A stretch of 52,235 nt of DNA, taken from the NCBI GenBank assembly GCA_902795065.1, contig CADBJR010000019.1, forward strand, positions 1 through 52,235, written 5' to 3'. The notes below the pieces were generated by a model that made no database searches, had not been told where the DNA came from, and saw nothing but the letters and a program-made list of their open reading frames with translations. Source of the stretch: an uncultured Coriobacteriaceae bacterium. Its GTDB lineage: Bacteria > Actinomycetota > Coriobacteriia > Coriobacteriales > Atopobiaceae. Below, in pieces: positions 17,192-32,660 of the stretch (positions are counted from its first letter, which is position 1; each line of letters opens with the position of its first letter). The translations under genes and the position numbers were made by a program.

Positions 17192-17525
17192 GGGCGCCTT
17201 TCCGAAGCGGCTCTTCCGCCCTCAAGGATACCCCTTGGTCACCCGTCATGACGCAAAATGTCTGTGGTGATGCAGGAACTCGGGCCTCATGCGACTAGCA
17301 CGGATAGAGAATGAATATTGATACTTGAATATCCAGGATTCATGCATAGAAATCAGCGGACAACATTTGACGGCGTGATTCTTGCATCATCAGGGACATT
17401 TCGGTGCAACGAGCGCCATGACCGTTGCCAAAACAGCGCGCTGAGCGGGCAGAATCCGCGTGGATAAGGGCCCCAACGCTATAATCGAACTGTTGTCAAC
17501 AACACGGGACGCTCAGGAGAAACCC
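17192..17525. promoter_or_regulatory. 334-base control region of the TIR operon
   Basis: AT-richer than its flanks. A consensus -10 TATAAT lies at 17480-17485, 41 bases before the first TIR gene's ATG. No good -35 is visible at the usual distance. A dyad TGTTG-TCAA-CAACA at 17491-17504 falls at the expected transcription start and could be an operator. AGGAGA precedes the ATG at 17526. No open frame is convincing in the rest of the region. Confidence 0.5.
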
Positions 17526-19103
17526 ATGGCCACGCCCTACAACGGACCTGCACCCTACGCGTTCGTCTCGTACTCGCACGTGGACCGCGTGCGCGTGGAG
17601 GCATGGCTCGACCTGCTCGAATCGATCGGCTGCCGCATGTGGTTCGACGAGGGCCTCACGCTCTCCCAGGAGTGGAACGACGAGCTCGCCGCCAAGGTGA
17701 GCGGCTCCTCGTTCGTGTTCTTCTTCGCGTCGAAGGACTCGGTCAAGAGCAAGGTCGCGCGCCGCGAGCTCAGCCACGCTGACCGCCACGGCATCGCCGT
17801 GCTGCCCATCTCGCTCGACGGCTGCGAGCTGCCCGACGGCCTCCAGTTCATGCTCGACAAGCAGCTCGTGCGCGACGACATCGACCCCAAGGACGCCCTC
17901 GCGAAGATCCGCAGCGACCTGCCCGACGAGCTGTTCGGCGTCGAGACGTACACCTTCGGCTCGGAGACGCAGCTCAAGCGCGCGTGGTACATCGCGAGCG
18001 GCAAGGCGAAGAAGGCGCGCCGGATCATCGTCGCTGCTGCGCTCACCGTGGCTGCGTCCGCGATTCTGGGGCTCGGCCTCACGCTGGGTCGCAACGAGGC
18101 GGCGTCAACCCTCCAGACCATGCAGGCCGAACCCACGCCCGCCGCGCTCGACGTCTACGCGTCGACGCTCACGGGCTACCACATGGCGGGCAACTACCAG
18201 ACCGTCGACCACCTGCCCGAGGAGCAGAGCGAATACACGGTGAGCGAGGCATTCTCGATCACGAGCTTCATCGAGAACACCGGCGACGAGGGCGCGTTCG
18301 TCGAGTCCACGCGCATGGACATCCTCTCGCTCGAGCCGGTCGAGGAACCCGTCGTCCTGACGGACGTCGGCATGATGGGCAACGACTTCTACGTCTTCGC
18401 GATGAACGACGGCTGGGGCGACGCGGACGAGCCCCTCGAGCTCGCGGCGTTCAACTCCAAGACGGGGGAGGAGATCCCCTTCGACAGCATCTGCTCCGAG
18501 GTCGATATCGCGCCGTCGATCGTGCTCCCCTCGGGCTGCGTGAACCGCGTGGCGCGCCTCTCCTTCGACCTCGAAAAGTTCGCCGCTAACGCGGGCGAGA
18601 GCGTCTTCGGCGATGCCGAGGTCGTCATCAGGAAGCGCCTCGAGGACGGATCGTGGAGCTACGGCTGGACGGTCGTCTACTCCGCGCACGACGGCCTCTA
18701 CATCTTCTGGCCGGGCATCGGCGACGGCAGCGACTACTCGATCACGCTGTTCGCGCTGCTCGACGTCGACCAGAACCCCTCGAGCATCATCTTCACGGGT
18801 GCGGAGGCGAATCCGCTGATAAACGGCACGTTCCGCGTCGAGACGGTCGTGGCGCCCACGCGCTCGTGCCACCTCCAGGTGCGCAACGTCTTCACGGTCA
18901 CGGGTCAGGAGAATCCCGTCCAGACCGAGGTCTACGACGTCAAGGTGATCGTGCCGCGCTACGAGACCAACGGCGTCTTCTACCGTACGGGCGCGCTCAC
19001 GGACCAGCTGCTCGAGGACCCCGACGCGTCGATGATGTACTACACGGAGCTCGCCCAGCCATACCGCTACGATCCGACATCAATCCTCGAGAACCACAGC
19101 TAA
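17526..19103 (+). CDS. TIR-domain protein with one membrane segment and an extracytoplasmic domain
   Basis: A 525-residue protein. Residues 10-135 are a TIR domain: AFVSYSHVDR, MWFDEGLTLSQEW, FVFFFASKDS and RRELSHA with Glu81 in the position of the NADase glutamate, then AVLPISLDG. One membrane helix follows at about 167-187, preceded by a basic KKARR stretch, so the TIR domain is cytosolic. Residues 190-525 lie outside; this region is acidic, beta-rich and of unknown family. ATG at 17526 (AGGAGA site) is preferred to GTG at 17460. It is separated by 15 bases from the second TIR gene. TIR domains in bacteria often make or cleave NAD-derived signals in phage defence; the outer domain suggests a sensor or effector role at the membrane, which is inference. 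Confidence 0.82.
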   Translation: MATPYNGPAPYAFVSYSHVDRVRVEAWLDLLESIGCRMWFDEGLTLSQEWNDELAAKVSGSSFVFFFASKDSVKSKVARRELSHADRHGIAVLPISLDGCELPDGLQFMLDKQLVRDDIDPKDALAKIRSDLPDELFGVETYTFGSETQLKRAWYIASGKAKKARRIIVAAALTVAASAILGLGLTLGRNEAASTLQTMQAEPTPAALDVYASTLTGYHMAGNYQTVDHLPEEQSEYTVSEAFSITSFIENTGDEGAFVESTRMDILSLEPVEEPVVLTDVGMMGNDFYVFAMNDGWGDADEPLELAAFNSKTGEEIPFDSICSEVDIAPSIVLPSGCVNRVARLSFDLEKFAANAGESVFGDAEVVIRKRLEDGSWSYGWTVVYSAHDGLYIFWPGIGDGSDYSITLFALLDVDQNPSSIIFTGAEANPLINGTFRVETVVAPTRSCHLQVRNVFTVTGQENPVQTEVYDVKVIVPRYETNGVFYRTGALTDQLLEDPDASMMYYTELAQPYRYDPTSILENHS

Positions 19104-19118
19104 TCCGGGGGGCGCACG

Positions 19119-21749
19119 ATGATCTTCATCAGCTACAGCAGGAAGAACATGGAAGCCGCCCGGGCGGTGCGCAGCGTGCTCCAGGCAAACGGCCTGAGCG
19201 TCTGGATGGACGAGAACTCGATCGTCGTCGGAACGGACTACGCCGACCGCATCCCGGCCGCCATCGAGGCATGCACGGCGTTCGTGCTGGTGCTCTCGCA
19301 GGAATCCATGATGTCGGCTTGGGTGCGCAAGGAGCTCGACACCGCGCTGCTCATGGAGAAGCCCATCCTGCCCATCCACATCGACAAATCCAATATCAGC
19401 CGCGCCTACACCTTCATGCTCTCGGGCATCCAGTTCGTCGAGGCGAGCGGAAACTCGGCCGATGCGTACAAGAGGCTCGTATCCCGTGCCAAGGCGCTCG
19501 AAGCCGAGGCGGAAGGCGGGGCTGCCGATGCCCCCGCGGGTCCATCCCAGAAGAAGGGCCTGCTGGATCTGCTCGGGTTCGGTGCCAAGAAGAAGCCCGC
19601 CGCCGTTCCCGAGAGCGCAGCCCTGAAGTCGCAGCTGAAACCCGTGGACTACTCCAAGGAGATCGAAGCACTCTGCCAGCGGGTGGCGGAGCTGGACGCG
19701 ATCTACGATGGCATGAGCCCCAGCACGTTCGGCTCCCAGACCAGCCGGTTCAGGGAGCGCCTCGCCAGGGGAGAGGTGCTCGAGTCGATCATGCCCGAGG
19801 CCATCGCGACCATGTGGCACGCGTACGGCCGTGCAAGCACCTCGACGCTCAACGCGGCGATCGCGCTCTTCAAGGGCATGGCGGTCGACGTCGATGCGGG
19901 CGATCCCCTGGACGTGCCCATAGCCTTCGCAGCCTACGCCTATGCGCTCGAGGGCAAGGGCGTGCACGCGGTCTTCGAGACCGAGGAGGCCGCCCGCCGC
20001 GCATGCAGGTATTTCGCAAGGCCGTTCGAGCGTCTGGGCATCAGCACCGCGGTCGTCGGCAGGAAAGACTCCTCCGACGACAAACGCGCTGCATACGCAG
20101 CCGATGTGACCTTCGGCTCGTATGCCACCTTCGTCCTCGATTACCTGAGCGACAACACCGTGGGCAGCCCTGTCCGGCGCGTGCAACGCGGACTCGCCAT
20201 CGCCCTGATCAACGACGCGGACCGTGTCCTCATCGATTTTGCGAGCATGCCCTGCACGATCACGACGTCCAAAGGGGACGGAATCGCCTCGTGCGCTGCC
20301 TGCGACTTCTTCCGCATGTACGACCTGATCGGCGGCATCTCAACGACGGCCGAGGAGGCTGCCGACGATCTCCGCGCCGTCTACCGCATGCCGTTCTTCA
20401 AGGCAGGCGGAAGGCAGAAACCCCTCGGGAAGAATGACGACGAGGTGTTCATCACCGACGAGGGACGGTGGAAGGCGGTCGCGCGTCGTGCCGGGGAGAA
20501 GGCCAGGGAAGGCCATCCCGTGATCATCGAGATTAGCAGGGAGTTCAGCGCTGACGTAGAGCGCCTGATGTCTCTACGGCGCAGGGTGGACTTCGAAATA
20601 GACGATCGTGTCGCCGTTGTCGATGGAGCGGACCCGAAGCGAGATGCCACCGTCCTGTCACGTGCGGGCGAGAGGGGCTCGGTGACCATCATCGTCGATG
20701 ATGCTGCAGATGGCGCGCCCATCCTGCCCAAGAACGCAGACCTTTACGCCATCGCGACCGAGCACCACATGGACGGCCGCCATGACCGTCGCTTCGAGGA
20801 TCTTATCGCTGCGAACGGGCAGGATGCGGAGCTGCGCCACATGCTCTCCTTGGACGACCATCTGATTGAGGCTACCAGCAGTGACTTCATGACGACCATC
20901 AAGCAGCAGTCACGCAAGCTGGGTGTTGGAGAAGACGATCCGATAGCCGCGCCCATGCTTACGCGTTCCATCGCGAGCGGGCAGAAGTCGGTCGAGAAGG
21001 TCGAGCGTCTCGCGCTCAGGCGCTGGATCGAGCTCGAGAGCCCCATCAACTGGCAGCAGCAGTACATCTACGAGCTGCGCAACCAGTGCGTCGACCGTAT
21101 CGAGATGGGCGAGCTCGCACGCGGCTTCTTCGCGCAGTTCGCGGAGAACGTCGTGCGCGCTGCGTGCCCCGAAGGCGAGCCGCGTTCGCGGTGGAACCTG
21201 GGCGTGCTCAACGCCGAATGCGCCAAGCTGGGAGGCGATGCTCCGATTCCGTTCTTCAGCAGCGCCGAGTCCCGCGACCACGTGCTCGAGATGATGCGCG
21301 GATGGATGGACGAGGCCCTCAACCGGAAGGCCGAGGAGCTGGGCTTGGACCAGCAGTACCTTGACGAGCTGCTCGGACGCGCCATGGTCATGTGCATCGA
21401 CAGGGAATGGCCCCTCCATCGCAAGCAGCTCCAGATGATGATGGACCGCGTCAAGCGGCCGAGTCTGGACAACGACGCCGCGTGGGCCCACACGATCGAG
21501 CAGTTCAAGACCGAGATCGGCAAGCCCTTCGCCGAGCTCCAGGACAGGATCTACCGAGAGTATGTCTCGGCCGTCCTCGGCCTCAGCGTGAAGCCGAGGG
21601 AATCGCAGCAGGGGACCGTACGGACGGGGTCGTCCGATAGGGTTTCATCGGACAACCCGTATCGCGGCGTCCGGCCCAACGACCTGTGCCCGTGCGGCAG
21701 TGGCAAGAAGTTCAAAGCCTGCCACGGCAGGCCGAAAGAGAACGCATGA
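19119..21749 (+). CDS. TIR domain fused to a degenerate SecA-like motor with SEC-C zinc tail
   Basis: An 876-residue protein. TIR domain at 1-125 (MIFISYSRKN, VWMDENSIVVGTDY, SAWVRKEL with candidate catalytic Glu72, KPILPIHID). A charged linker at 126-180 follows. Residues 181-825 align by eye to SecA: FRERLARGEVLESIMPEAIA, ALEGKGVHAVF, AAYAADVTFG...LDYLSDN, RRVQRGLAIALIND, DFFRMYDLIGGISTTAEE, AIATEHHMDGR, MLSLDDHLI, and the C-terminal helical region near REWPLHRKQLQMMMDRVKR. Walker A of SecA (TGEGKT) is AGDPLD here, Walker B DEVDS is NDADR, and the arginine-finger motif is gone. The peptide-crosslinking (PPXD) domain is missing. SEC-C ligands CPCGSGKKFKACHG are at 857-870. It is therefore a pseudo-ATPase that keeps the SecA shape. 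The stop overlaps the next gene (ATGA). Confidence 0.85.
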   Translation: MIFISYSRKNMEAARAVRSVLQANGLSVWMDENSIVVGTDYADRIPAAIEACTAFVLVLSQESMMSAWVRKELDTALLMEKPILPIHIDKSNISRAYTFMLSGIQFVEASGNSADAYKRLVSRAKALEAEAEGGAADAPAGPSQKKGLLDLLGFGAKKKPAAVPESAALKSQLKPVDYSKEIEALCQRVAELDAIYDGMSPSTFGSQTSRFRERLARGEVLESIMPEAIATMWHAYGRASTSTLNAAIALFKGMAVDVDAGDPLDVPIAFAAYAYALEGKGVHAVFETEEAARRACRYFARPFERLGISTAVVGRKDSSDDKRAAYAADVTFGSYATFVLDYLSDNTVGSPVRRVQRGLAIALINDADRVLIDFASMPCTITTSKGDGIASCAACDFFRMYDLIGGISTTAEEAADDLRAVYRMPFFKAGGRQKPLGKNDDEVFITDEGRWKAVARRAGEKAREGHPVIIEISREFSADVERLMSLRRRVDFEIDDRVAVVDGADPKRDATVLSRAGERGSVTIIVDDAADGAPILPKNADLYAIATEHHMDGRHDRRFEDLIAANGQDAELRHMLSLDDHLIEATSSDFMTTIKQQSRKLGVGEDDPIAAPMLTRSIASGQKSVEKVERLALRRWIELESPINWQQQYIYELRNQCVDRIEMGELARGFFAQFAENVVRAACPEGEPRSRWNLGVLNAECAKLGGDAPIPFFSSAESRDHVLEMMRGWMDEALNRKAEELGLDQQYLDELLGRAMVMCIDREWPLHRKQLQMMMDRVKRPSLDNDAAWAHTIEQFKTEIGKPFAELQDRIYREYVSAVLGLSVKPRESQQGTVRTGSSDRVSSDNPYRGVRPNDLCPCGSGKKFKACHGRPKENA

Positions 21750-22159
21750 CCTCCCTGACCGAGCAGGCGTTCGCCGAGACGTACGTGCGTAAGGACCGCC
21801 GCGAGCGGCTGCTGCACGAGCTGTCGAACCCCAGGAAACGCTCCCGCGGGCTCGACCGGTTCTGCCACGGTGCAGCCGACCTGCTCGATCCCGCGCGTAT
21901 CACGCTCGCAGGTCCCAGCCTCGAGCACGACCCCGCATTCATCGCTTTCGTCGCCCCGCGTGCAGGCGAGACGTGCCGGATCTTCTCGCCCGACGGCGGG
22001 ATCGACGGCCTGGAGCTCCCGCTCGCTGAGGCGGTCGCAGCGTGCGTCGCGTGCCTCGACGCGTCCATCATCATGGGCGGCGGCTTCGCCATCGTGCGCG
22101 CCGAGGCGTGGAAGGGCGGCGCGGACATGTGGCTGCTCGAGCAGGGGAGGCAAGCATGA
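21746..22159 (+). CDS. Small protein of unknown function in the TIR-pseudoSecA operon
   Basis: A 137-residue soluble protein. The N-terminal half is basic and helical (YVRKDRRERLLHELSNPRKR, then RGLDRFCHGAADLLDP). The C-terminal half alternates hydrophobic strands with AEAVAACVACLD and IIMGGGFAIVRAEAW. I do not recognise the family. It overlaps both neighbours by ATGA, so the three genes are translated as a unit with near-fixed stoichiometry. A chaperone, immunity or adaptor role for the neighbours is possible but unproven. Confidence 0.65.
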   Translation: MTSLTEQAFAETYVRKDRRERLLHELSNPRKRSRGLDRFCHGAADLLDPARITLAGPSLEHDPAFIAFVAPRAGETCRIFSPDGGIDGLELPLAEAVAACVACLDASIIMGGGFAIVRAEAWKGGADMWLLEQGRQA

Positions 22160-22569
22160 TCAAGCCCATCATGACAAGCACGTTCTTCCTCAAGCGTCCG
22201 AGCACCGCCGCAAACGCCGGCGATCTCGAGATCGCGCGCGACCTGGAGGACACGCTCGAGGCGCACCGCGCCACGTGCGCGGGCATGGCAGCCAACATGA
22301 TCGGGCAGCTCAAGCGCATCATCGCCGTGGTCGACGACGACGGCTCCATCCTCGTGATGCTCAACCCCGAGATCGTGCACGCGAGCGGCCCCTACACCAC
22401 GAGCGAGGGCTGCCTGTCGCTGCCGGGCGTGCGCGAGACGACCCGCTTCCAGCGCATCCTGGTGTCGTACGAGGACACGCTCATGCGCAGCTGCGAGCGC
22501 TCGTTCAAGGGGTTCGTGGCGCAGGCGGTCCAGCACGAGATCGACCACTGCAACGGCGTGCTGATCTGA
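22156..22569 (+). CDS. def: Peptide-deformylase-like protein (short, altered motif I)
   Basis: A 137-residue member of the deformylase fold. Metal-binding motifs II (EGCLSLPG) and III (QHEIDH) are intact, giving Cys, two His and the general-base Glu. Motif I, normally GxGxAAxQ, reads CAGMAANMIG, so the conserved glutamine that helps stabilise the transition state is methionine. Canonical Def is 150-190 residues; this short type also exists in Firmicutes. Either it deformylates poorly or it acts on something else. It overlaps the preceding gene by ATGA, placing it in the TIR operon. A canonical def gene must lie elsewhere if this one is not functional. Confidence 0.8.
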   Translation: MIKPIMTSTFFLKRPSTAANAGDLEIARDLEDTLEAHRATCAGMAANMIGQLKRIIAVVDDDGSILVMLNPEIVHASGPYTTSEGCLSLPGVRETTRFQRILVSYEDTLMRSCERSFKGFVAQAVQHEIDHCNGVLI

Positions 22570-22641
22570 CGATTTCGACCGCGCTGCCGCTCGATTCACC
22601 CCCAATTGCTGCGCAAACCAGCTTCCGTCCACCTGGTCGAC

Positions 22642-22647
22642 TACAAT
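22642..22647 (+). promoter_or_regulatory. Possible -10 box for the Nudix-helicase pair
   Basis: TACAAT lies 29 bases before the Nudix ATG in the 107-base gap after the deformylase-like gene. No clear -35 is present. It suggests that the Nudix-helicase unit has its own promoter. Confidence 0.3.
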
Positions 22648-22676
22648 GGCTTGGAACGGGAGGAGGTCGAACGCCC

Positions 22677-23069
22677 ATGAAGTCCATCGATGTCGTTGCC
22701 GCGATCATCTGCCAGGATGGCAAGATTCTCGCCACGCAGCGCGGGTATGGCGACTTTGCCGGTGGTTGGGAGTTTCCCGGTGGGAAGATCGAGCCCGGGG
22801 AGACGCCCGAGGAAGCCATCGTGCGCGAGATCCACGAGGAGCTTGGGGCCATCATCGCGGTGGACGGGCACCTGGTGACCATCGACCATGACTACGAGAC
22901 GTTCCACCTGCACATGGCGTGCTTCCTCGCGCACGTGGCCGAGGGTGCGCTCGAGCTGCACGAGCACAGCTCCGCGCGGTGGGTGGATGGAGAGACGATC
23001 GACTCGCTCGACTGGCTGCCTGCAGATTTGAAGGTCGTTAAGGCTGTGAAAGAGCATTCTGTCGTGTAG
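22677..23069 (+). CDS. Nudix hydrolase, MutT / 8-oxo-dGTP diphosphatase type
   Basis: A 130-residue Nudix enzyme. It opens with the strand IDVVAAIIC, and the Nudix box is complete: GGKIEPGETPEEAIVREIHEELGA, seen in two stretches around residues 37-60, with both catalytic glutamates of REIHEE. Length and the WEFPGGK motif fit the MutT group that removes oxidised nucleotides, although related enzymes cleave other nucleotide derivatives. GGGAGGAGG precedes the ATG. The helicase gene starts 16 bases after its stop, so the two are probably co-transcribed and may be one module. Confidence 0.88.
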   Translation: MKSIDVVAAIICQDGKILATQRGYGDFAGGWEFPGGKIEPGETPEEAIVREIHEELGAIIAVDGHLVTIDHDYETFHLHMACFLAHVAEGALELHEHSSARWVDGETIDSLDWLPADLKVVKAVKEHSVV

Positions 23070-23085
23070 GGGCACGGGGGATTCC

Positions 23086-26034
23086 ATGGATGAAAACGGT
23101 GCAACGGGGATGGCTCTTGATGATGAGTTGCTAGACGCTGCCCGGACAGCGCTTATCGACAGCACGTTCCCCTCGAGGCCGGATCTTAGGCCTAAGCTGC
23201 TTTCGAATGATATTCATCGTGGGCGGAAGGTCGTCTCGTCGATCAATTCCGAGCTATCGAAATGCTCTTCGTTCGATTTCTCAGTTGCATTCATCACACA
23301 GGGTGGAATTGAGCCGCTTCTTCAAACGCTTCGAGAATTGGAGAAAAAGGGAGTGCCCGGAAGGGTTATCACAACCGACTACCTTGCCTTCAGCGAACCG
23401 AACGCTCTAGAAAAGCTCGATAGCCTCAAGAACATCGAAGTCAGGATGTATCGGACTATCAATTCTCCCAATCAATTCGGTTTCCATACCAAGGGCTATC
23501 TGTTCGCCTATCCCAACGGATTGAAGAAAGCGCTGGTGGGAAGCTCGAACATGACCCAGTCTGCCCTCTCGGTCAATCGAGAATGGAATCTTGAACTTAG
23601 TTCCTTGGGCCAAGGAAGTCTTGTTCAAGACATCCAAACAGAGTTCGAGGATCTTTGGGAGAAATCGGTCCCTCTCTCAGAGATCATCGATCTCTATCGG
23701 ACCATTCATGACGAGAAGAAGCAGATCGTCCGTCAGGAGACCATTGTCAGCATCGATCAGATCAAGCTTGAGCCCAATTCGATGCAGCTCGGTTTTATCG
23801 CCTCCCTTGACGATCTGATTGCGCGTGGAGCTTCGCGTGCGCTGCTTATCTCCGCAACGGGAACGGGGAAGACCTACGCCTCTGCATTTGCCATGCGCCA
23901 TCTTGATCCGAAGCGCGTCCTGTTCCTGGCACATCGCGAACAGGTTCTCAAACAGGCGAAGAAAAGCTATGCCAAGGTCTTGGGCCATACGAAGACCTAT
24001 GGCTTGCTCTCGGGCAATTCTCACGATTTCGACAGCGATTATCTCTTTGCAACCATGCAGACAATGTCGCAGGACTCCTGGCTGAAGCAGTTCAAACCTT
24101 GGGATTTCGACGTGATCATCGTTGATGAGGTTCATCGCGCAGGGTCTGCAAGCTATCAGAAGATCATCGACTATTTCAAACCGCGTTTGTATCTTGGCAT
24201 GACCGCGACTCCTGAAAGACCGGACTCATTCGATATCTACGGTCTGTTTGACAACGAGATTGCCTATGAGATCCGTTTGCAAGATGCACTCGAGAACAAC
24301 CTGCTTTGTCCGTTCCACTATTTCGGTATTACGGATCTTGAGGTTGACGGAAAGCCTGTTGATGATCTGACTGAAGTTGGAAAGCTTGTCTCGGATGAAC
24401 GTGTTGACTACATCATCGAGCAGGCAGAGTACTACGACTATAGCGGCGAGCGGGTAAAAGGACTTGTATTCTGCAAATCCCTAGAAGAAGCAGTTGCCCT
24501 TTCAAACAAGTTCAATGAGAGGGGCTACAAAACAAAGGCCCTTTCAGGAGATACTCCTCAAGAAGAACGAGAGGACGCCATTGAGCGTTTGACAAGCGAT
24601 TCTATTCCCGAGGATCTGCAGCTTGACTACCTGTTCACCGTGGACATCTTCAATGAGGGAGTTGATATTCCGCAGGTTAATCAGGTCCTCATGCTGCGTC
24701 CAACCAAGTCGCCAATTGTGTTTGTCCAGCAACTTGGCAGAGGTCTCCGACAGTCCGACAACAAGGAATTCGTTGTCGTTCTCGACTTCATCGGGAACTA
24801 CACGAACAACTACCTCATTCCTATCGCCCTGTCTGGTGATCGGACCTACAACAAGGATTCGATCCGTAAGTACGTGATGGAAGGCGATAGGGTTATCCCA
24901 GGCTCGTCCAGCATCCATTTCGACGAGATCTCCCGTGAACGCATCTTCGAATCGATTGACCAATCGAAGACGAGCCTTGCATTCTTCAGGCAGAAGTACA
25001 ACGACCTGAAACATAAGCTTGGTCGCATTCCCTTCATGCTTGATTTCCAGAAGTATGGCGAAGTCGATCCGATTCTTTTCGTCAACCAGTACAAATCGTA
25101 CTATCGCTTCCTGGTGAAGGTTGAGCCTGAGTACAGGCATGTTTTGACCGAAGACGAACAGCTTACACTCGAGTATGTTTCTCGTTACTTTGGAAACGGC
25201 ATGAGGCCTCACGAGATCCTCGTGATGCAGAAGCTGCTCAGAGATGAGCCGGTTTCACGTGATGATCTCCAGCTGATGCTCAAAGAACAGGGATTCGGTC
25301 AGCTCGATGAACGTGCATTTCTCTCCACGACTCTCGTCCTCGACAAGTCGTTCATGAACCAGCCTCCGGACAGACGAAGCTACGAAAAAGTCAGTCTGAT
25401 TGAAACTGACGGCGATACCATCACTTGTAGCTCTGGCCTTCATGAAATGCTCGAGCACGCCCTGTTCAAAGCGGCGATGCTTGACATTCTTGACTGTGGA
25501 CTGATGCGATATCGCGAAAAGTACGCAGTTTCCGACCATGGTTTGACGCTGTACGAGAAGTACACGCGAAAAGACGTTTTACGACTGCTCAATTGGGAGC
25601 TTGACGAGAGCATGGCGGTCATGGGCTATCGTGTTAAGCACAATACATGCCCCATTTTTGTCACGTATAACAAGTCCGACGAAATCGCTCGCTCGACTCA
25701 ATATGCAGACGAGTTCGTCTCACCTCGTGTGTTCAGCTGGATGACACGTTCTAACAGGTCGCTCTTTTCTCCTGAGGTCCGCATGATCATCGATGGCCCG
25801 TCATTTGATCTGGACATCAGGCTATTCATCAAGAAAAGCGATAACGAGGGCAGCGATTTCTACTATCTTGGGCGGGTAAAGCCTTTTGAGTGGAAAGAGA
25901 TGAAGCAGGAGAACGATGCGGGGGAGCTGCTCGATATCGTGAACTTCAAGTTCGAGCTTGAGCATACCGTCCCCGATGATCTGTATGAGTACTTCGGAGG
26001 TCCGGATCTAGCGGGAGAGATTCTTTCTGCGTAG
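23086..26034 (+). CDS. PLD-like nuclease / DEAD-box helicase / DUF3427 protein
   Basis: A 982-residue three-part protein. Residues about 55-205 are a phospholipase-D-type nuclease domain with HTKGYLF and GSSNMTQSAL, giving the H-K and S-N pair of one HKD-like half-site. The superfamily 2 helicase runs about 235-640: Walker A ATGTGKT near 257, DEVH near 346, GMTATPERPD and QQLGRGLRQS near 550. The C-terminal 300 residues match DUF3427, ending in ELEHTVPDDLYEYFGG. Codon use is clearly AT-richer than in neighbours (GAA, AAG, TTC with many A/T-ending codons), which points to recent transfer. Such proteins are found in defence islands; the mechanism is not established here. Confidence 0.85.
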   Translation: MDENGATGMALDDELLDAARTALIDSTFPSRPDLRPKLLSNDIHRGRKVVSSINSELSKCSSFDFSVAFITQGGIEPLLQTLRELEKKGVPGRVITTDYLAFSEPNALEKLDSLKNIEVRMYRTINSPNQFGFHTKGYLFAYPNGLKKALVGSSNMTQSALSVNREWNLELSSLGQGSLVQDIQTEFEDLWEKSVPLSEIIDLYRTIHDEKKQIVRQETIVSIDQIKLEPNSMQLGFIASLDDLIARGASRALLISATGTGKTYASAFAMRHLDPKRVLFLAHREQVLKQAKKSYAKVLGHTKTYGLLSGNSHDFDSDYLFATMQTMSQDSWLKQFKPWDFDVIIVDEVHRAGSASYQKIIDYFKPRLYLGMTATPERPDSFDIYGLFDNEIAYEIRLQDALENNLLCPFHYFGITDLEVDGKPVDDLTEVGKLVSDERVDYIIEQAEYYDYSGERVKGLVFCKSLEEAVALSNKFNERGYKTKALSGDTPQEEREDAIERLTSDSIPEDLQLDYLFTVDIFNEGVDIPQVNQVLMLRPTKSPIVFVQQLGRGLRQSDNKEFVVVLDFIGNYTNNYLIPIALSGDRTYNKDSIRKYVMEGDRVIPGSSSIHFDEISRERIFESIDQSKTSLAFFRQKYNDLKHKLGRIPFMLDFQKYGEVDPILFVNQYKSYYRFLVKVEPEYRHVLTEDEQLTLEYVSRYFGNGMRPHEILVMQKLLRDEPVSRDDLQLMLKEQGFGQLDERAFLSTTLVLDKSFMNQPPDRRSYEKVSLIETDGDTITCSSGLHEMLEHALFKAAMLDILDCGLMRYREKYAVSDHGLTLYEKYTRKDVLRLLNWELDESMAVMGYRVKHNTCPIFVTYNKSDEIARSTQYADEFVSPRVFSWMTRSNRSLFSPEVRMIIDGPSFDLDIRLFIKKSDNEGSDFYYLGRVKPFEWKEMKQENDAGELLDIVNFKFELEHTVPDDLYEYFGGPDLAGEILSA

Positions 26035-26037
26035 TGG

Positions 26038-27081
26038 CTACGCACTCTCTAGCTGCAGGAATTTGTCGAAATGCACCTGCAGATAATCTGCGTATGGGCG
26101 CTCAGATTCCAGTGCGGTGTCTCTCAGCTTTCTGCCCTTGAGCTCCGAATACTCAGTGTCCTTGAGCTGCGTTCCCGTTATGATGCGCATGTCCTCAGGA
26201 TCTACGCTCAGCAATGAGTTGTCGAACAGCAGGTGGATGTCCGCACGGAGCATGAGGCCGTTGTTAACGACGTTCGTCCTGTAGCCGCGATAGTCCATGA
26301 TGTGAGCTGCTTGCAGGGTCTTGTCGACGGAGCAACCGGTCATTGCACAACGTCCCTGATAAGCGCGCATGAGAGTCTCTCTGAATTGGCGCTGCCCTTC
26401 GCGCGTCTTCCGTTCCACCGTCACGAGCTTGCGAAGATCCTCCGCCAGCTCTTCGGGAGAGGGGAGGAACAGCGGAACAGAGGAGTGTTCAGGCGAGAGC
26501 GCTCTTCCAGGGTTCTCGTTGAGCGACATCACCGGGCCGTGCAGCGTGAAGGTGTCGGTGAGGGGGTCGTACGCCTCGACGAAGGCAAGCGCTCGGTAGT
26601 AGTCGCTGCTTCCAGGTCCTTCTTGGATGTACACACCGACTGGAAGCCCGCAGTACATGCAATTCATAAGGCCGTCGTTCCACTTTGCGAACGTCTCGTT
26701 GCCTTTGTTGTTGCGGTGCGCTGAGTAGTACAGCAGCCATGATCCGTCGGGGAGAGGCCTGCGTGGCTGATCGTTGGAGTAGATGCTCTTCCTGTTGACG
26801 CGGATCGAGAGTGCGAAGTCTTGGTTAGCTGGAACATGGATGCCACGCTGAGCAGAGGTCTTGAAGCCTTCGGAGGTTCCTTCGAGGTGCTGGCCGAGTA
26901 GCGTTTTACCAACGGTGCCTGAGTTATCGATGAACCACTCATACGTTACCTTATAGTCGTTTCGCACGCTCTCAGGCAGAATGGCGAGCGCTTGTCCGAA
27001 CGTGAGGTTGAGGAAGCGGATGCGCGATTCCGCGCCGAACCCGTCAGGTGCGTAGGCGATTGCGCTGTGCATGGTGGCCAT
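26038..27081 (-). CDS. HNH endonuclease with N-terminal recognition-like domain
   Basis: A 347-residue predicted nuclease. The C terminus is an HNH_2-type domain: YQGRCAMTGC, LQAAHIMDYRG, NGLMLRADIHLLFD and a conserved LLSVDPEDMRI end. The N-terminal 200 residues contain QRGIHVPANQDFALSIRVNR and DGSWLLYYSAH, a layout seen in modification-dependent restriction proteins that join a DNA-reading domain to HNH. The start at 27081 is chosen because TTGGAG lies 6 bases before it; an in-frame start 69 bases upstream has no site. It is convergent with the helicase gene, 3 bases apart. Restriction of modified or foreign DNA is the likely role, by analogy only. Confidence 0.78.
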   Translation of the reverse strand: MATMHSAIAYAPDGFGAESRIRFLNLTFGQALAILPESVRNDYKVTYEWFIDNSGTVGKTLLGQHLEGTSEGFKTSAQRGIHVPANQDFALSIRVNRKSIYSNDQPRRPLPDGSWLLYYSAHRNNKGNETFAKWNDGLMNCMYCGLPVGVYIQEGPGSSDYYRALAFVEAYDPLTDTFTLHGPVMSLNENPGRALSPEHSSVPLFLPSPEELAEDLRKLVTVERKTREGQRQFRETLMRAYQGRCAMTGCSVDKTLQAAHIMDYRGYRTNVVNNGLMLRADIHLLFDNSLLSVDPEDMRIITGTQLKDTEYSELKGRKLRDTALESERPYADYLQVHFDKFLQLESA

Positions 27082-27200
27082 ATCTGCTCCAAACAACGCT
27101 GTGAGCTGGGATCCTATGGCTATGATCGCGCATTGCGGAGGCGCGGGCAATCGGGTACGGGATTATTGCCAGAGAGAATGTCCCCCGCCGATTGACCTTC

Positions 27201-27228
27201 TTGTCCTCCGTCTAATGCATGCTATACA
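27201..27228 (+). promoter_or_regulatory. Sigma-70-like promoter for the zinc-ribbon gene
   Basis: TTGTCC (27201-27206), a 16-base spacer, then TATACA (27223-27228). It lies 30 bases before the GTG start at 27259. Confidence 0.5.
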
Positions 27229-27258
27229 TGAGTAAATGGCTTTCCGAAAGGGGGCGTC

Positions 27259-27768
27259 GTGGGATACGGCTATCTGTACCGGTGCGCATCATGCGGTTTC
27301 GAGGACGAGGTTCTGGTCGGAGTCGGCTTCGGGCACACCCAGGAGGTTGGGGAGATATACCGGGGCTTCCAGCTTGGCGCGTACGGCCCGAGACTGAGGA
27401 GGGTTTTCAGGAAGTCGAAGCTTGCGGGCGTCAGCGCCAACCACGACATCTTCGTGTGCGAGAGCTGCGGCCATTGGAGCACGTTCGTGGACGCCTCTAT
27501 CTGGGAGCCGAATGACCCGGATCAGGCGGTCGCAGAGGCTGCGCAGAACAATAACCCGTATTGGGAGTGGGACAATCACCCGGCGTTCATCGACACCGAG
27601 GCTTGGCATCCTGCATGCGCGTACGAGCCCAAATGCCCGAAATGCAGCGACAAGATGCACCATCTGGGGCTGGGCGACCGGTATGAGACGGATTTCGTCC
27701 TGCCATGCCCGGAGTGCGGGGAGAAGAACCGTCTCTCCGATGGGCTGAGCATGATCAACTGGGACTAG
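27259..27768 (+). CDS. Zinc-ribbon protein of unknown function
   Basis: A 169-residue protein with four CxxC knuckles: CASC near 9, CESC near 69, CPKC near 127 and CPEC near 152, enough for two zinc ribbons. Between them is a WEWDNHP acidic-aromatic stretch. No membrane segment. Start is GTG after AAAGGGGG. No family recognised. Zinc-ribbon proteins of this kind often bind nucleic acid or act as adaptors. Confidence 0.6.
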   Translation: MGYGYLYRCASCGFEDEVLVGVGFGHTQEVGEIYRGFQLGAYGPRLRRVFRKSKLAGVSANHDIFVCESCGHWSTFVDASIWEPNDPDQAVAEAAQNNNPYWEWDNHPAFIDTEAWHPACAYEPKCPKCSDKMHHLGLGDRYETDFVLPCPECGEKNRLSDGLSMINWD

Positions 27769-27824
27769 GCTGGGTCGCTGCGGGGCTTTTCTACGGTTGC
27801 AACTTGATGTGAAAGGACAACGTT

Positions 27825-28193
27825 ATGGCTGATGGAACGGTTTTTCTCACTGCACGGCGACTGAACCAGGGGCTTCGGATGGATGGGGATTGGGGCGAAA
27901 CCCGGTTCACCGTTTTCGAGGATGGTACGGTCACCTGCGTCAACCATGCGGGAAGCGAGGATCGGGAGTTCACGCGGTCGCTCAGCGAATCCGACTTCGC
28001 CTTCATCGAGGAGCATATCGACGAGTACATGAAGGCCGAGCCCGTGCTTGCGATCTGCGATGGAACCACATGGGAGTTCAAGTACCGCGACCGTCATTTC
28101 GGCCCCGGCTATGTGTATGGGATCGAACTCGAGGAGATAGCCGATATACTCGATGCGCTCGATCTTCCCGCCGGCGGTACGTGCGATGAGTGA
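27825..28193 (+). CDS. Small acidic protein of unknown function
   Basis: A 122-residue acidic protein with a beta-rich first half (FTVFEDGTVTCVNHAG) and a helical end (IELEEIADILDALD). ATG follows GAAAGGAC with good spacing. It lies 56 bases after the zinc-ribbon gene, same strand. No family recognised; the overall look is of a small cytosolic domain repeated in many accessory regions. Confidence 0.55.
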   Translation: MADGTVFLTARRLNQGLRMDGDWGETRFTVFEDGTVTCVNHAGSEDREFTRSLSESDFAFIEEHIDEYMKAEPVLAICDGTTWEFKYRDRHFGPGYVYGIELEEIADILDALDLPAGGTCDE

Positions 28194-28272
28194 GATGAGG
28201 GTGGACCGCATCTCGCGTACGTGCACCGCGCTGCGCATCCTGTGAGGTAGGGGATACGGGGGTCGTTCCGGC

Positions 28273-28746
28273 TTACCCCTCGAGATGCTGCCCCAGGATC
28301 CGTGCAGCAGATGCGACGAGCTCGGCGCAGGGGCGGCTGCCGTAGTACGACTCCGTGCGCTTCTCCGGCGTCGCCTCGCTGGGACCGGCGTCCAGGCCGA
28401 GAAGCTCGCGGCAGATGATCGAGCCGTTCTCATCCTTGAACGCGCCGGCGAGCGCCTGCGCCTTCTCGTACAGCTCCTTCTTCGCGTCGAACGCTTCGGG
28501 GTCGTTGTAGCCCTCGGCGAGCCCCAGTACGAGCAGCATTCCCGAGACCGCCCCGCACACCTCGCGCATGCGCCCCATGCCGCCGCCGAGTGGCGACGCC
28601 AGCAGCGCTGCCGTCTCGGGGTCGACGCCATGCTCCTCGAACACGTCGTCGAACGCCCGCACAACCGACTGCGCGCAGTTGTATCCCGCCGTGAAGTTCC
28701 GCCGTGCCAGCTCTTCCCGCTCCGCCGCGTCCATGCCGCCTCCCAT
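28273..28746 (-). CDS. C_GCAxxG_C_C-type putative redox-active protein
   Basis: A 157-residue protein of the C_GCAxxG_C_C family. Cysteines fall in NCAQSVV (about 24), the VCGAVSGM motif at about 63-70 (CGAxxG), a later IICREL cysteine and RPCAEL near the end. These fit the family's spacing of metal- or disulphide-competent cysteines; function is unproven. ATG at 28746 has AGGAAG 8 bases upstream; ATG at 28734 with GGGAGG 4 bases away is an alternative start, changing the protein by four residues. Confidence 0.8.
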   Translation of the reverse strand: MGGGMDAAEREELARRNFTAGYNCAQSVVRAFDDVFEEHGVDPETAALLASPLGGGMGRMREVCGAVSGMLLVLGLAEGYNDPEAFDAKKELYEKAQALAGAFKDENGSIICRELLGLDAGPSEATPEKRTESYYGSRPCAELVASAARILGQHLEG

Positions 28747-28902
28747 CCGCCGTGCTTCCTGCTAGAAGCTTAACGCATCCGCCGGCGGCGAGGCCGTGCG
28801 GGCGCATCCTGCAGGTTCGAGGGGTCTACAATAGGCTCAATTGGATTGATCCGTCGTAACAGAGAGATCGACCTCCTGCGCCCCAATCGATTGGAGTTGC
28901 TC

Positions 28903-29971
28903 ATGTACGAGCACATGACGAGGTTCATCGAAGATTTGGACAACGGGCGATTCGACGAGTCCGCGTTCACGCATGCCCTCTACGATCCGCCCGTGTACGA
29001 CAACCGGTACCGCGATACGCTCGATGCGCATGGTCTCGACGGCGCGAAGCCCTGGGGTGCGGATGTGGAGCATCTCGACCTTCCGGCGACGCTCGCGCTG
29101 CTCACCTTCGTCCATCGCGCGGATTACTTCTCGTGGGGCGCGCTGCAGAAAGCCGTGGAGGACGGCTTCCTGCGGCGGATCCTCGTGCGTCTCGCCGAGC
29201 TCGAGGAGGAGATGCGCTCGCACACCATCATCGGCTTCTGGAAGGACGACGAGCCGTACGGGTTCTGCAGCAACTGGTACCCCGCGGGCTTCGAGTTCTT
29301 CGGGACCGAGTTCAAGACCAGCGAGCACTGGATGATGTGGCAGAAGGCGCGCGTGATGGGCGCCTTCGACATGGAGCAGAAGATCCTCGACGCGCCGACC
29401 GCTGGGCAGGAAGATTCCCTACTTCGACGGCGACCTCTGGAACGACGTGAGCGAGCAGCTCGTCTACTACGGCGTCCGCGAGAAGTTCCTGGCGAATCCC
29501 GCGCTCGGGTCGATGCTCATGGCGACCGGTTCCGCGCTGCTCTGCGAAGCAACGCCGCCCGACCTGGTGTGGGGCATCGGTATGGGTGTGGACGACCCCT
29601 CGTTCAACAGCCCCGCCTCGTGGAAGGGGAAGAACCTGCAGGGACGCGTGTGCATGCGCGTGCGCACCGACCTGGGGCTGTGCGGGGGGAAGCTGCCCGC
29701 CCGCGAGGAGATGGTGGAGCGGCTGCTGGATTCGCAGATCGGACGGATGAGCCTGACCGAGCTCTATCGCGTTCCCGTCGCGCGTCGGGCGGTGCAGTGC
29801 TACGCGCAGATTGCGGCGCAGGCAGTTTTCAGCACGACGGTCAGCATCCTGGACGATTTCCTCGAAAAGACCCAGTGGCTGGACGCCAGGATTCAGGACA
29901 TGGCGGCCACCAATCTGGGGCGCGAGCTGCTCGTCCAGCTCGCCTTCCTGCAGCACACGAAGCAGTTGTAG
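28903..29971 (+). pseudogene. Frameshifted DUF6508-NADAR protein
   Basis: Two reading frames together encode one protein of about 355 residues. Frame 1, from ATG 28903 (GGAG 6 bases before), has a DUF6508-like region (ATLALLTFVHRADYFSWGAL) and the start of a NADAR domain (FWKDDEPYGFCSNWYPAGFE, SEHWMMWQKAR). Near 29404-29410 it must shift by +1 to continue as RKIPYFDGDLWND and then VREKFLANPALGSMLMATGS and DLVWGIGMGV, the rest of NADAR, plus about 90 C-terminal residues ending at 29971. NADAR domains act on ADP-ribosylated substrates. The shift is either a real inactivation or a sequencing error; both halves otherwise keep their conserved residues. TACAAT at 28826-28831 is a possible -10. Confidence 0.75.
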
Positions 29972-29979
29972 GAGCGATC

Positions 29980-30408
29980 ATGGCCGATTACCTTGCCCGT
30001 GCGGAGTCGCTTGCGCGCAGGGCCCATGCGGCGCAGGTCGATAAGTCCGGCGCCCCGTATGTCGAGCATCTCGCGTTTGTCGCCGACCATGTGGCGGGCG
30101 ATGATGCCAAGGCTGTCGCGTGGCTGCACGACATCGTCGAGGATACCGAGGTCACGCTCGACGATCTCCGGCGCGAGGGCTTTCCGGAGTATATCGTCGC
30201 TGCGGTCGACGCCCACACGCATCGGGCGGGCGAGGCGTATCTCGACTACGTGCGCCGCGCTGCGGCGAATCCGCTCGCGCGGCAGGTGAAGACCCAGGAT
30301 GTGCTGCACAACATGGATCTCTCGCGCCTTCCCGAGCCTGGTGCGGCGGATGTTGCGCGTCTGCACGGCAAGTACATCCCCGCGTTGCGGATTCTGATAG
30401 GGGAGTAG
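29980..30408 (+). CDS. HD-domain phosphohydrolase, SpoT/MESH1-like
   Basis: A 142-residue single HD domain. His16 (RRAHAAQ), His30 (PYVEHLAFV), the His50-Asp51 pair in AWLHDIVEDTEVT and the final aspartate in LHNMDLSRL match the hydrolase part of RelA/SpoT enzymes, so removal of pyrophosphate from (p)ppGpp or a related nucleotide is likely. No synthetase domain is present. ATG follows AGGAGCG 8 bases after the NADAR gene stop, so the two are probably one transcript. Confidence 0.8.
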   Translation: MADYLARAESLARRAHAAQVDKSGAPYVEHLAFVADHVAGDDAKAVAWLHDIVEDTEVTLDDLRREGFPEYIVAAVDAHTHRAGEAYLDYVRRAAANPLARQVKTQDVLHNMDLSRLPEPGAADVARLHGKYIPALRILIGE

Positions 30409-30437
30409 GGGCGTCTCCAGCTGGTTTTGCGTGCAAT

Positions 30438-30550
30438 GCAAGTTGACTTGGTGGTTTTATTCAATGGGGTGCTGAAGAAAGCCACCAAGTCAACTTGCTT
30501 CATACTGCATTTGCCCAGTTGAAAGCTCGTCAGACACCAAGTCAACTTGC
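30438..30550. repeat. Three copies of a 16-17-base motif, two as an inverted repeat
   Basis: GCAAGTTGACTTGGTGG at 30438-30454 is the exact reverse complement of CCACCAAGTCAACTTGC at 30482-30498 (27-base gap). A third copy, CACCAAGTCAACTTGC, is at 30535-30550 in the second orientation. The region is otherwise gene-free and lies between the HD gene and a convergent minus-strand gene. It may be a protein-binding array, a terminator or a degenerate mobile end. Confidence 0.75.
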
Positions 30551-30580
30551 AACGTCTCAAAAACTCACGAAAGGGGTTCT

Positions 30581-30964
30581 CTACTCGTGGCCGAAGTAGT
30601 CGGCGAGGCCCTTGATACCGACAGCATCCTCGTCGTTTGCGTCGGGGCAGAACGTATCGACGAGGATCTTCTGGATCTGGTCGGTCTTGACGTCTGCGCG
30701 TCCGAGGGCCTTCGCGAGGACGACGATGCCGTCGAGGGTGCCCGGCGTCCTGAGCCTCTCGGTGAGCGGGATCCTTCCGCCTACGACGCTGTCGAGCTCG
30801 TCGTCCGAAAGCGCGAAGCCGGATTCGCTGCCACCCGCGACGAGGCGGTCGCCGATGATCCTGGCGAGCCTGTCGGATGACATGGAGGCCAGCTGGTCGG
30901 GGGGAATGACGAGGCCGGCGGCGATCTTGTCGAGCTGCTCGGGGGTGAGGTCCTTGATTTCCAT
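30581..30964 (-). CDS. Small protein with Gly-Gly leader-like motifs, unknown function
   Basis: A 127-residue acidic protein. It contains two leader-like stretches: LTPEQLDKIAAGL at the start, and ALSDDELDSVVGGRIPLTER in the middle, which resembles the ELxxVxGG end of Nif11-type or bacteriocin leaders. The segment after the Gly-Gly is 65 residues with one cysteine. No maturation enzyme, protease-transporter or immunity gene is adjacent, so a peptide natural product is not claimed. GAAAGGA precedes the ATG. Confidence 0.5.
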   Translation of the reverse strand: MEIKDLTPEQLDKIAAGLVIPPDQLASMSSDRLARIIGDRLVAGGSESGFALSDDELDSVVGGRIPLTERLRTPGTLDGIVVLAKALGRADVKTDQIQKILVDTFCPDANDEDAVGIKGLADYFGHE

Positions 30965-31111
30965 GGTCGGTCCTTTCTCGCGTGTTCATGTCCTGCACCT
31001 ATTATTACGCTCGGGCATCGGGTTCTGTCTCAACTGTTCGAAGAGAATCTCAGCCGGCAGATGGCTACACTTGATTCGGCAAATAAACGACCGTTCTGCG
31101 GAGGAGCGATC

Positions 31112-31731
31112 ATGGCACACGAGAAGAAGGAACGCAAGCTGACGGAAGCCGAGCAGAGGCGCCTCGACCACTTCAACGAGGTTGGCGACGCGCTCGTCGC
31201 GCAGGGCTATACGCGCACCGACCTCCGGATCAACATGGTGACGGCCAACGTGGTCTCCATCGTCGGCGCCGTCGCGCTTCTCGCTCTCTGCATCGTCGCG
31301 TTCTCCTTTATCCACCCCGAGGTCGATCTCGCCTCCGGGTATTCGCTCATCGTGCTTCTGGTTGTCTTCGTTGTGCTGATCGTCGTGCACGAGCTGATCC
31401 ACGGCTTCACGTGGAGCCGCTTCACGAGGACGTCGAGTTCGGCGTCATGTGGAGCGCGCTCGCGCCGTACTGCGCCTGCAACGCGCCGCTGAAGAAGGGC
31501 CCCTACATCCTCGGCGCGTTGATGCCCCTTATCACGTTGGGCATCATCCCCCTGATCGTGGCGTTCTGCATCGGATCGGCGCCGCTCCTGTACATCGGGG
31601 CGCTTATGGTCGTTGGTGCCACGGGCGACATCCTGATCGTCCTGAAGCTCCTCGGCCACAAGTCCACCGCGACCGACGTGCTCCTCTACGACCACCCCAC
31701 CGAGGGCGGCAGCGTCATCTTCGAGCGCTAA
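31112..31731 (+). pseudogene. Frameshifted DUF3267-type membrane metalloprotease
   Basis: Frame 1 from ATG 31112 (GGAGGAGCG upstream) encodes two membrane helices and the zinc motif HELIHGFTWSRF. At about 31421-31428 the frame must slip by -1 to continue as EDVEFGVMWSALAPYCACNA, followed by two more membrane segments (PLITLGIIPLIVAFC, LLYIGALMVVGATG) and the stop at 31731. Joined, the product is about 206 residues, the normal DUF3267 size with HExxH and PYCxC motifs. As sequenced, frame 1 ends at 31492 without the second half. It is the second single-base frameshift within 2 kb. Confidence 0.75.
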
Positions 31732-31818
31732 CGGCTGCGGGCGCAGGGCAGCCTGTCTCCAAAAAGCGCCAAATCGGGAACCGTCCCCCGTTTCTCACTC
31801 GCTCACGCGGAAATTCAT

Positions 31819-31982
31819 GTCGTGATGGCGTTTTTCGGGACTTGTCGGCGGTTTATGCGTATCGAAAAAGACGGGTCCGCAGAATCGGTCGTTCTACCTG
31901 CGCAAACAGAGGCCTCCTATTCGCCCGATGGAAACATGAGACCCCGAAACCGCCGACAAGTCCCGAAAAACGCCATCACGAC
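31819..31982. repeat. 164-base element with perfect 36-base inverted repeats
   Basis: Arms 31819-31854 and 31947-31982 are exact reverse complements and contain CGGGACTTGTCGGCGG. The centre (31855-31946) has no open frame of note. It is flanked by GGGAACCGTCCCCCG at 31767-31781 and GGAACCGTCTCC at 32022-32033, remnants of the GGGACGGTTCC family. The whole 31732-32039 gap therefore holds repeats only. Confidence 0.8.
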
Positions 31983-32039
31983 GCAAAAAACTGCGCAGAA
32001 CGCTCCGAAAAGGTCTATTTCGGAACCGTCTCCTTTTGA

Positions 32040-32660
32040 TCAAGCGCGGTTGCGGCCCATCCCGAAGCCCGCGGCGCCGCCGATGACGCCGCCCACGAAG
32101 TGCGACAGGTTGGAGACGTTGTCGGTCACGAAGACACCCTGGATGATCTGCTGGCCCAGGAAGATGATCGCCACGAGGATGAACGTGAGCGGGATCTCGC
32201 CCGTGCGGACGCTCGTGACCGATGACAGGATGATGAACGCGAGCACCACGCCGCTCGCGCCGCAGAGCGCGACGTTGGGGAACAGCAGGTAGTTGATGAC
32301 GCCCGTGATGGCCGCCGTCACGGCGATGACCAGAGCGAGCGTGCGCGAGCCGTACTTCTCCTCCAGCAGCGGTCCGAGCAGCAGGATGTAGCTGAGGTTG
32401 CCGACGAGATGGTCCCAGCCGCCGTGGCCCAGCACGTGCGTGAAGAGGCGCAGGTAGGTGAGGGGGTCGGAGAGCGGGCTGCGGTAGGTCATGAAGAACG
32501 CCTGCGTGATGGCGCCGCCGCTGGTCTGGCCGAGTATGGTCGCCGCCACGCACAGCCCCGAGAAGATCAGGACCACGGGCGCGTTGAAGGTGATGTGCCA
32601 GCGCGGCCGCGGTGCGGGCGTGGGCTGTTCGGGCTGCATCTGCAGGGGGTCGTCTGCCAT
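32040..32660 (-). CDS. Rhomboid-family intramembrane serine protease
   Basis: A 206-residue polytopic membrane protein. The catalytic serine is Ser136 in CGASGVVLAF and the partner histidine is His187 in SNLSHFVGG. The loop GHGGWDHLVGNLSY supplies the conserved His and Asn of the oxyanion region. The N-terminal 22 residues are a cytosolic Pro/Gln stretch. Six helices are visible, the minimal rhomboid core. Substrate unknown. GAAAGGAG precedes the ATG. Confidence 0.88.
   Translation of the reverse strand: MADDPLQMQPEQPTPAPRPRWHITFNAPVVLIFSGLCVAATILGQTSGGAITQAFFMTYRSPLSDPLTYLRLFTHVLGHGGWDHLVGNLSYILLLGPLLEEKYGSRTLALVIAVTAAITGVINYLLFPNVALCGASGVVLAFIILSSVTSVRTGEIPLTFILVAIIFLGQQIIQGVFVTDNVSNLSHFVGGVIGGAAGFGMGRNRA

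Follow-up and report, generated by a model that had tools for sequence, protein, structure and literature searches.

An intact open reading frame on the forward strand of the window, the whole 52,235-nt stretch of DNA that was analyzed, was confirmed to encode an N-terminal TIR domain followed by a whole SecA-derived chain in which, judging from alignments, the ATPase motifs have been lost. The gene occupies 19119..21749, begins with ATG and encodes 876 amino acids, and the GC content of its three codon positions is 0.63/0.45/0.84. All five Pfam domains scored above curated cut-offs, in the order TIR_2 (residues 2-121, E 6.4e-23), SecA_DEAD (179-385, E 1.9e-34), P-loop_SecA (439-535, E 6.9e-9), SecA_SW (608-820, E 2.9e-15) and SEC-C (854-871, E 2.7e-9). 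In a phmmer search of the PDB, Bacillus subtilis SecA matched the fusion with an E value of 1.4e-54 in two blocks, which pair residues 187-382 with SecA 27-227 and residues 390-872 with SecA 356-843. Since SecA residues 227-356 are skipped between these blocks, the preprotein-binding domain appears to be missing. The initial annotation of a TIR domain joined to a SecA-derived pseudo-ATPase with a SEC-C tail was thus borne out by the Pfam domain order, the phmmer match and the motif alignments. That annotation had put the start of the SecA likeness at residue 180; the likeness does extend end to end from there, and it appears to begin earlier, at a candidate N-terminal helix (residues 147-159, GLLDLLGFGAKKK, 19557..19595, forward strand) that in alignment is similar to the amphipathic N-terminal segment of SecA from Eggerthellaceae. 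This match comprises 4-5 identities in 13 positions, which is weak taken alone, and an insert of about 20 amino acids comes after it. With a SecA-like helix ahead of NBD1, the fusion seems to have arisen by the addition of a TIR domain upstream of an entire secA.

The SecA half, also on the forward strand throughout, combines a retained architecture with the loss of all its ATPase motifs. In NBD1 (residues 179-385, 19653..20273) Pfam, phmmer and alignments indicate that the motifs are destroyed: the remnant of Walker A reads AGDPLD (19896..19913) in place of the canonical TGEGKT, that of Walker B reads NDADR (20211..20225) in place of DEVDS, with Asn-Asp at the position of Escherichia coli D209-E210, and the Q-motif region is 5 aa shorter and has Thr for Q87. 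NBD2 (residues 389-600, 20283..20918) has lost its lineage-specific insert, motif V (ATNMAGRGTDI changed to IVDDAADGAPI) and motif VI (QLRGRSGRQGD changed to RFEDLIAANGQ); E. coli Arg509, Arg574 and Arg577 are replaced by Asp, Leu and Ala, and Arg566 is retained as R554. The destruction of both Walker motifs and of the arginine motif, claimed at the outset, therefore holds in the alignments, with three of four arginines lost. The claimed absence of the peptide-clamp domain was upheld as well, as E. coli residues 228-366 are absent in phmmer and other alignments and a scar, TSKGDG (20265..20282), stands in their place. The scaffold, wing and two-helix finger (residues 608-820, 20940..21578) are recognized by the SecA_SW model, and the finger is still modelled as helices 745-777 and 786-820, with the conserved tip rewritten from GYAQKDP to AAWAH, so that Ala787 corresponds to E. 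coli Tyr794. The SEC-C zinc tail (21678..21731) keeps an intact CxCx8CH motif in Pfam and in alignment: the E. coli ligands C885, C887, C896 and H897 are all retained, as C857, C859, C868 and H869.

These losses bear on what the SecA half might bind. SecA contacts SecYEG and the chain in transit through its preprotein-binding domain and the finger tip with Tyr794. In E. coli SecA, F399 crosslinks to ribosomal uL29 (PMC6620043), and the aligned position in the fusion is Asp416, which disfavors ribosome docking of the E. coli kind. The initial annotation had proposed that the fold is kept for binding and had listed SecYEG and the ribosome among candidate partners; these two are now disfavored because their contact features (the preprotein-binding domain, the finger tip and F399) are what the fusion lost. 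Taken together, the retained and lost features argue for putative binding through the tail or a core surface rather than to SecYEG.

An AlphaFold2 model of the SecA part, with a mean pLDDT of 73 (for the most part 80-95 across NBD1 and 75-90 across the scaffold), had solved SecA structures as its best matches and aligned to them over residues 170-825, with Z scores of 40.6 against 5EUL and 39.9 against 2FSH. Because SecAs made up the alignment behind the model, its agreement with the sequence evidence is not independent support. A profile search of the SecA part likewise matched SecA families, as the initial annotation anticipated, and with model Z scores of about 40 over residues 170-825 the core SecA fold is predicted to be retained in the fusion. 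A tree of 25 sequences placed the fusion among Coriobacteriia SecAs (UFBoot 88), and together with an actinobacterial relative (UFBoot 100); its branch is 3.4 substitutions per site long, and long-branch effects on this placement are possible. The AU test gave 0.956 for a position within Coriobacteriia and 0.064 for one beside them, which is not rejected, and rejected, at 0.004, a position outside the wider group with the actinobacterial relative. The SecA part most likely descends from a Coriobacteriia SecA. The host, a gut actinobacterium, also encodes a canonical SecA as a separate gene on contig 15, with intact Walker motifs in the part inspected.

The TIR domain (residues 2-121, 19122..19481, forward strand) was assigned to the NADase type from TIR_2, phmmer and Foldseek matches. 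It was matched to AbTIR and SARM1 by phmmer, and when modelled on its own (pLDDT 65) its best Foldseek matches were SARM1, SPARTA and AbTIR. Glu72, in the motif WVRKEL (19332..19334, forward strand), lies on helix alpha-C and aligns with the catalytic Glu of SARM1 (E642) and AbTIR, and the domain is probably of the active type, a predicted NADase. Its identity of about 38% to the TIR domains of membrane TIR proteins in two other genomes of the family (G134 and G127) suggests domain shuffling within the family. Six TIR_2 genes were found in the host genome, and other TIR proteins encoded there (L082:4395-5912 and L084:3386-6739) resemble proteins with a TIR domain, a membrane segment and repeat or propeller-like regions.

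No second TIR-SecA protein was found in about 750 actinobacterial genomes, in searches that covered sets of 140 genomes of the family, 397 of the order, 396 across the phylum and 36 of another class. None was found in viral contigs, plasmids or phages, where a TIR-only scan of the viral contigs also gave no match, nor in a shallow scan of 85,000 genomes that used six exact octapeptides, which leaves room for distant relatives; in other phyla, relatives with less than roughly 30% identity would escape the ortholog searches, which had no independent positive control. The relatives of the fusion that were inspected are canonical SecAs, and no match shown spans the TIR domain. Two candidates, L031 from Clostridiales and G575, proved to be canonical SecAs, and the extra SecAs of an Eggerthellaceae genome (G041) were rejected as pseudo-SecAs, their Walker motifs being retained; that genome (L024, L025 and L026) has four SecA genes, three of them within 20 kb. 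These searches gave no homologue with another effector in place of TIR. In the literature searched, SecA-like domains are mentioned in secreted toxins (PMC8195603), which differ from the TIR-SecA fusion, and no TIR-pseudoSecA was found described, in agreement with the initial annotation.

Upstream of the fusion, 15 nt away and on the same strand, is a gene (17526..19103, inferred start codon, in a frame that opens at 17460) for a predicted TIR - transmembrane - ectodomain protein, with a TIR_2 match at E 1.1e-13 and a hydrophobic segment at residues 189-207 of the long frame; the catalytic-type Glu is present in both TIR domains. Two full-length relatives of this membrane TIR protein occur in the family (G134 and G127), and no SecA-like gene was found beside them where sequence exists, the G127 contig ending there. 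Downstream, overlapping the fusion by ATGA, is a gene for a 137-aa protein (21746..22159, forward strand) that had no match in Pfam, PHROG, NCBIfam or PADLOC and was not found in the other 139 family genomes or the phylum sample. It may or may not be an obligate partner of the fusion, since its distant relatives occur solo in Bacillus plasmids (Priestia and Niallia). The next gene, again with an ATGA overlap, encodes a peptide deformylase-like protein (22156..22569, forward strand, PF01327 E 2.1e-25), which was rejected as a partner because it is widespread in the family without the fusion, and is probably not specific to this system. A NUDIX gene separates it from a type IV restriction enzyme of PLD - helicase - DUF3427 composition (23086..26034, forward strand, PADLOC mREase_IV E 5e-230), which is followed by an HNH nuclease gene; the enzyme and the converging nuclease gene span 23086-27150 of the window. 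Further along, a NADAR (ADP-ribose-related) gene is split over two frames (28846-29409 and 29447-29968), either by a true break or by an assembly error, and a gene for a DUF3267 putative zincin peptidase is split between frames at 31061-31728. A promoter scan gave no hit.

These genes lie in a genomic island. In two congeneric genomes (G078 and G079) the run of rsmI, (HAD) and vsr leads straight into sequence that starts near 32.05 kb in the window, and because both lack the segment from about 17.2 to 32.0 kb at the same site we take it as an island of about 15 kb, from vsr to a rhomboid gene (17194..32042). As it holds the membrane TIR protein and the type IV restriction enzyme, a defence-type setting for the fusion is supported. 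Near the right end lie two inverted repeats, one of 26 nt with an additional 19-nt direct copy and the other of 45 nt around a 74-nt loop (30438-30550, 31819-31982).

The reading we favor, at a probability of roughly 45%, is that the fusion is an immune-type TIR protein whose regulatory half, a catalytically dead SecA copy built into the protein, serves as decoy or platform. In a resting cell the SecA-fold platform would hold the TIR domain inactive. A factor that normally attacks or binds SecA, such as a phage takeover factor, an aberrant SecA or a SEC-C partner, might then engage the decoy, upon which the platform would shift shape or oligomerize and the TIR domains would pair, possibly with the upstream membrane TIR protein serving as partner. 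Paired TIR domains could cleave NAD, or make an ADP-ribose signal, halting the cell and the infection. The narrower proposal is an integrated-decoy receptor: a second copy of the cell's own SecA would have lost its engine and been joined to a TIR NADase, and factors that act on SecA would thereby set off an NAD-depleting suicide. This is offered more tentatively and should be regarded as a doubtful but serious possibility. The earlier suggestion of a decoy or sensor of the export machinery is plausible to this extent: a TIR domain is combined with a dead SecA, the fold is predicted to be kept and the island is of defence type. Ancestry within the lineage is what a decoy of a host protein would be expected to show, and together with the island context it favors an integrated decoy for SecA-directed attack. 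Counting against the decoy, no phage factor that binds SecA was found in the literature searched. TIR domains can also act as plain adaptors, and the fusion is a single example, with no pattern of conservation or effector swapping among the genomes searched, both of which count against an immune reading. Sensing of an essential host protein that phage has bound does have a precedent in bacterial immunity, namely CapRel-Ebc, with FtsZ and Gp0.4 (PMC13423816).

The main rivals of the decoy reading are two other working roles for the protein. SecA itself dimerizes and binds lipid, and its fold might here be only a scaffold for dimerization or membrane docking, with the membrane TIR protein (17526-19103) as sensor and the fusion as its cytosolic partner. 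The adjacency of the two genes, 15 nt apart on one strand, and the Glu shared by their TIR domains fit such a pair, which we consider somewhat unlikely, as it is not conserved next to the membrane TIR relatives in G134 and G127 where sequence is available, and the strong conservation of the SEC-C tail calls for a specific ligand. That tail would also suit a non-immune regulator of export stress, in which the dead SecA would either compete for a partner of SecA (the SEC-C ligand, lipid or SecA itself) or measure it, and the TIR domain would report an export block through a drop in NAD or protein contacts. Deformylase acts on nascent chains, and the fusion lies near a deformylase-like gene; yet that gene is widespread without the fusion, the features for SecY and ribosome contact are lost, and the fusion sits in an island absent from sister species rather than in the core genome, which makes this role improbable.

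It is very unlikely that the protein is functionless, a decaying SecA copy fused to a TIR domain by accident, as its singleton status, long branch and loss of motifs and a domain might otherwise suggest. About 700 SecA-derived codons, at 21-38% identity, contain no stop or frameshift, where by our own estimate a randomized sequence at the window GC of 65.5% would be expected to contain about 17 stops, with a chance of about 3e-8 of having none. The GC profile over codon positions is typical for coding sequence, with 0.84 at the third. In canonical SecAs 168 alignment columns reach at least 95% conservation; the fusion retains 15 of the 54 inside the ATP motifs and 53 of the 114 outside them (p 0.03). 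Identity to Coriobacteriia SecAs falls from 34-38% in NBD1 to 25-28% in NBD2 and 21-24% in the scaffold and wing, whereas in the SEC-C tail (residues 846-872; SSDNPYRGVRPNDLCPCGSGKKFKACHG), similar to the tails of Eggerthellaceae and Collinsella, it reaches 70-74% for the two closest Coriobacteriia SecAs and 52% for a third. A nearly unchanged tail on a body diverged by 3.4 substitutions per site suggests selection on what the tail binds. Constraint rather than decay, as first proposed from the coordinated losses, is thus supported by the intact 876-codon frame, the third-position GC and the tail. An atypical but working translocase of the SecA2 type is scarcely credible: SecA2 models are among the best NCBIfam matches, but the best score is 214.5 bits against a curated cut-off of 814, and Walker A and B, three of four arginines, the preprotein-binding domain and the finger tip are gone.

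Bacterial immunity is known to couple TIR effectors with sensing modules, and a sensing module built from an essential housekeeping motor was not found described in the literature searched. By its domain composition the fusion is an unusual TIR-effector protein, a single example whose sensing or scaffold module may be of a new kind. If the decoy reading is true, an inactive replica of a host target forms part of an immune receptor in bacteria just as it does in plants, SecA is attacked by phages or rivals so frequently that guarding it pays, and the fusion could be used as bait to find SecA-targeting factors; such guard or decoy logic for the Sec pathway would be previously undescribed in bacteria. 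Even if the protein is not immune, a SecA with neither ATPase nor clamp and with a strongly constrained zinc tail would amount to a natural separation-of-function experiment on SEC-C binding.

Among known systems, the fusion shares with canonical Coriobacteriia SecA (PF07517/PF21090/PF07516/PF02810; SecA translocase, PF07517 / TIGR00963) the domain order NBD1, NBD2, scaffold/wing and SEC-C, the predicted fold, the zinc ligands, the tail and probable ancestry, and differs from it in having no ATP site, preprotein-binding domain, finger tip or NBD2 insert and in carrying a TIR domain in front. With NADase TIR immune proteins (AbTIR, SPARTA TIR-APAZ, TIR-SAVED, Thoeris ThsB and also SARM1) it shares the TIR fold, the catalytic-type Glu and the pairing of an N-terminal effector with a C-terminal sensing or oligomerizing part; unlike in those proteins, the sensing part would be a SecA-derived pseudoenzyme. 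No Ago, SAVED or ThsA partner was found among the neighbors scanned. A short Argonaute system of the SPARTA TIR-APAZ type was rejected because the C-terminal part is SecA and the PADLOC matches reach only to residue 122, and CBASS TIR-SAVED because the match is confined to TIR residues 2-80. The ThsB match in PADLOC (1.2e-6) spans only the TIR domain, and no ThsA model (SIR2-SLOG, macro or TM effector) was matched among six neighbors. In mode of action only, the proposed reading recalls the integrated decoys of plant NLR proteins (NLR-ID), where a dead copy of a host protein lies inside an immune receptor; the fusion is bacterial and has neither NB-ARC nor LRR, and the likeness would be one of analogy, not homology. 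CapRel-Ebc, which senses FtsZ-Gp0.4 (PMC13423816), would be its bacterial counterpart in watching an essential host protein, with the difference that there the host protein is separate, whereas here a derivative of SecA is fused into the protein itself.
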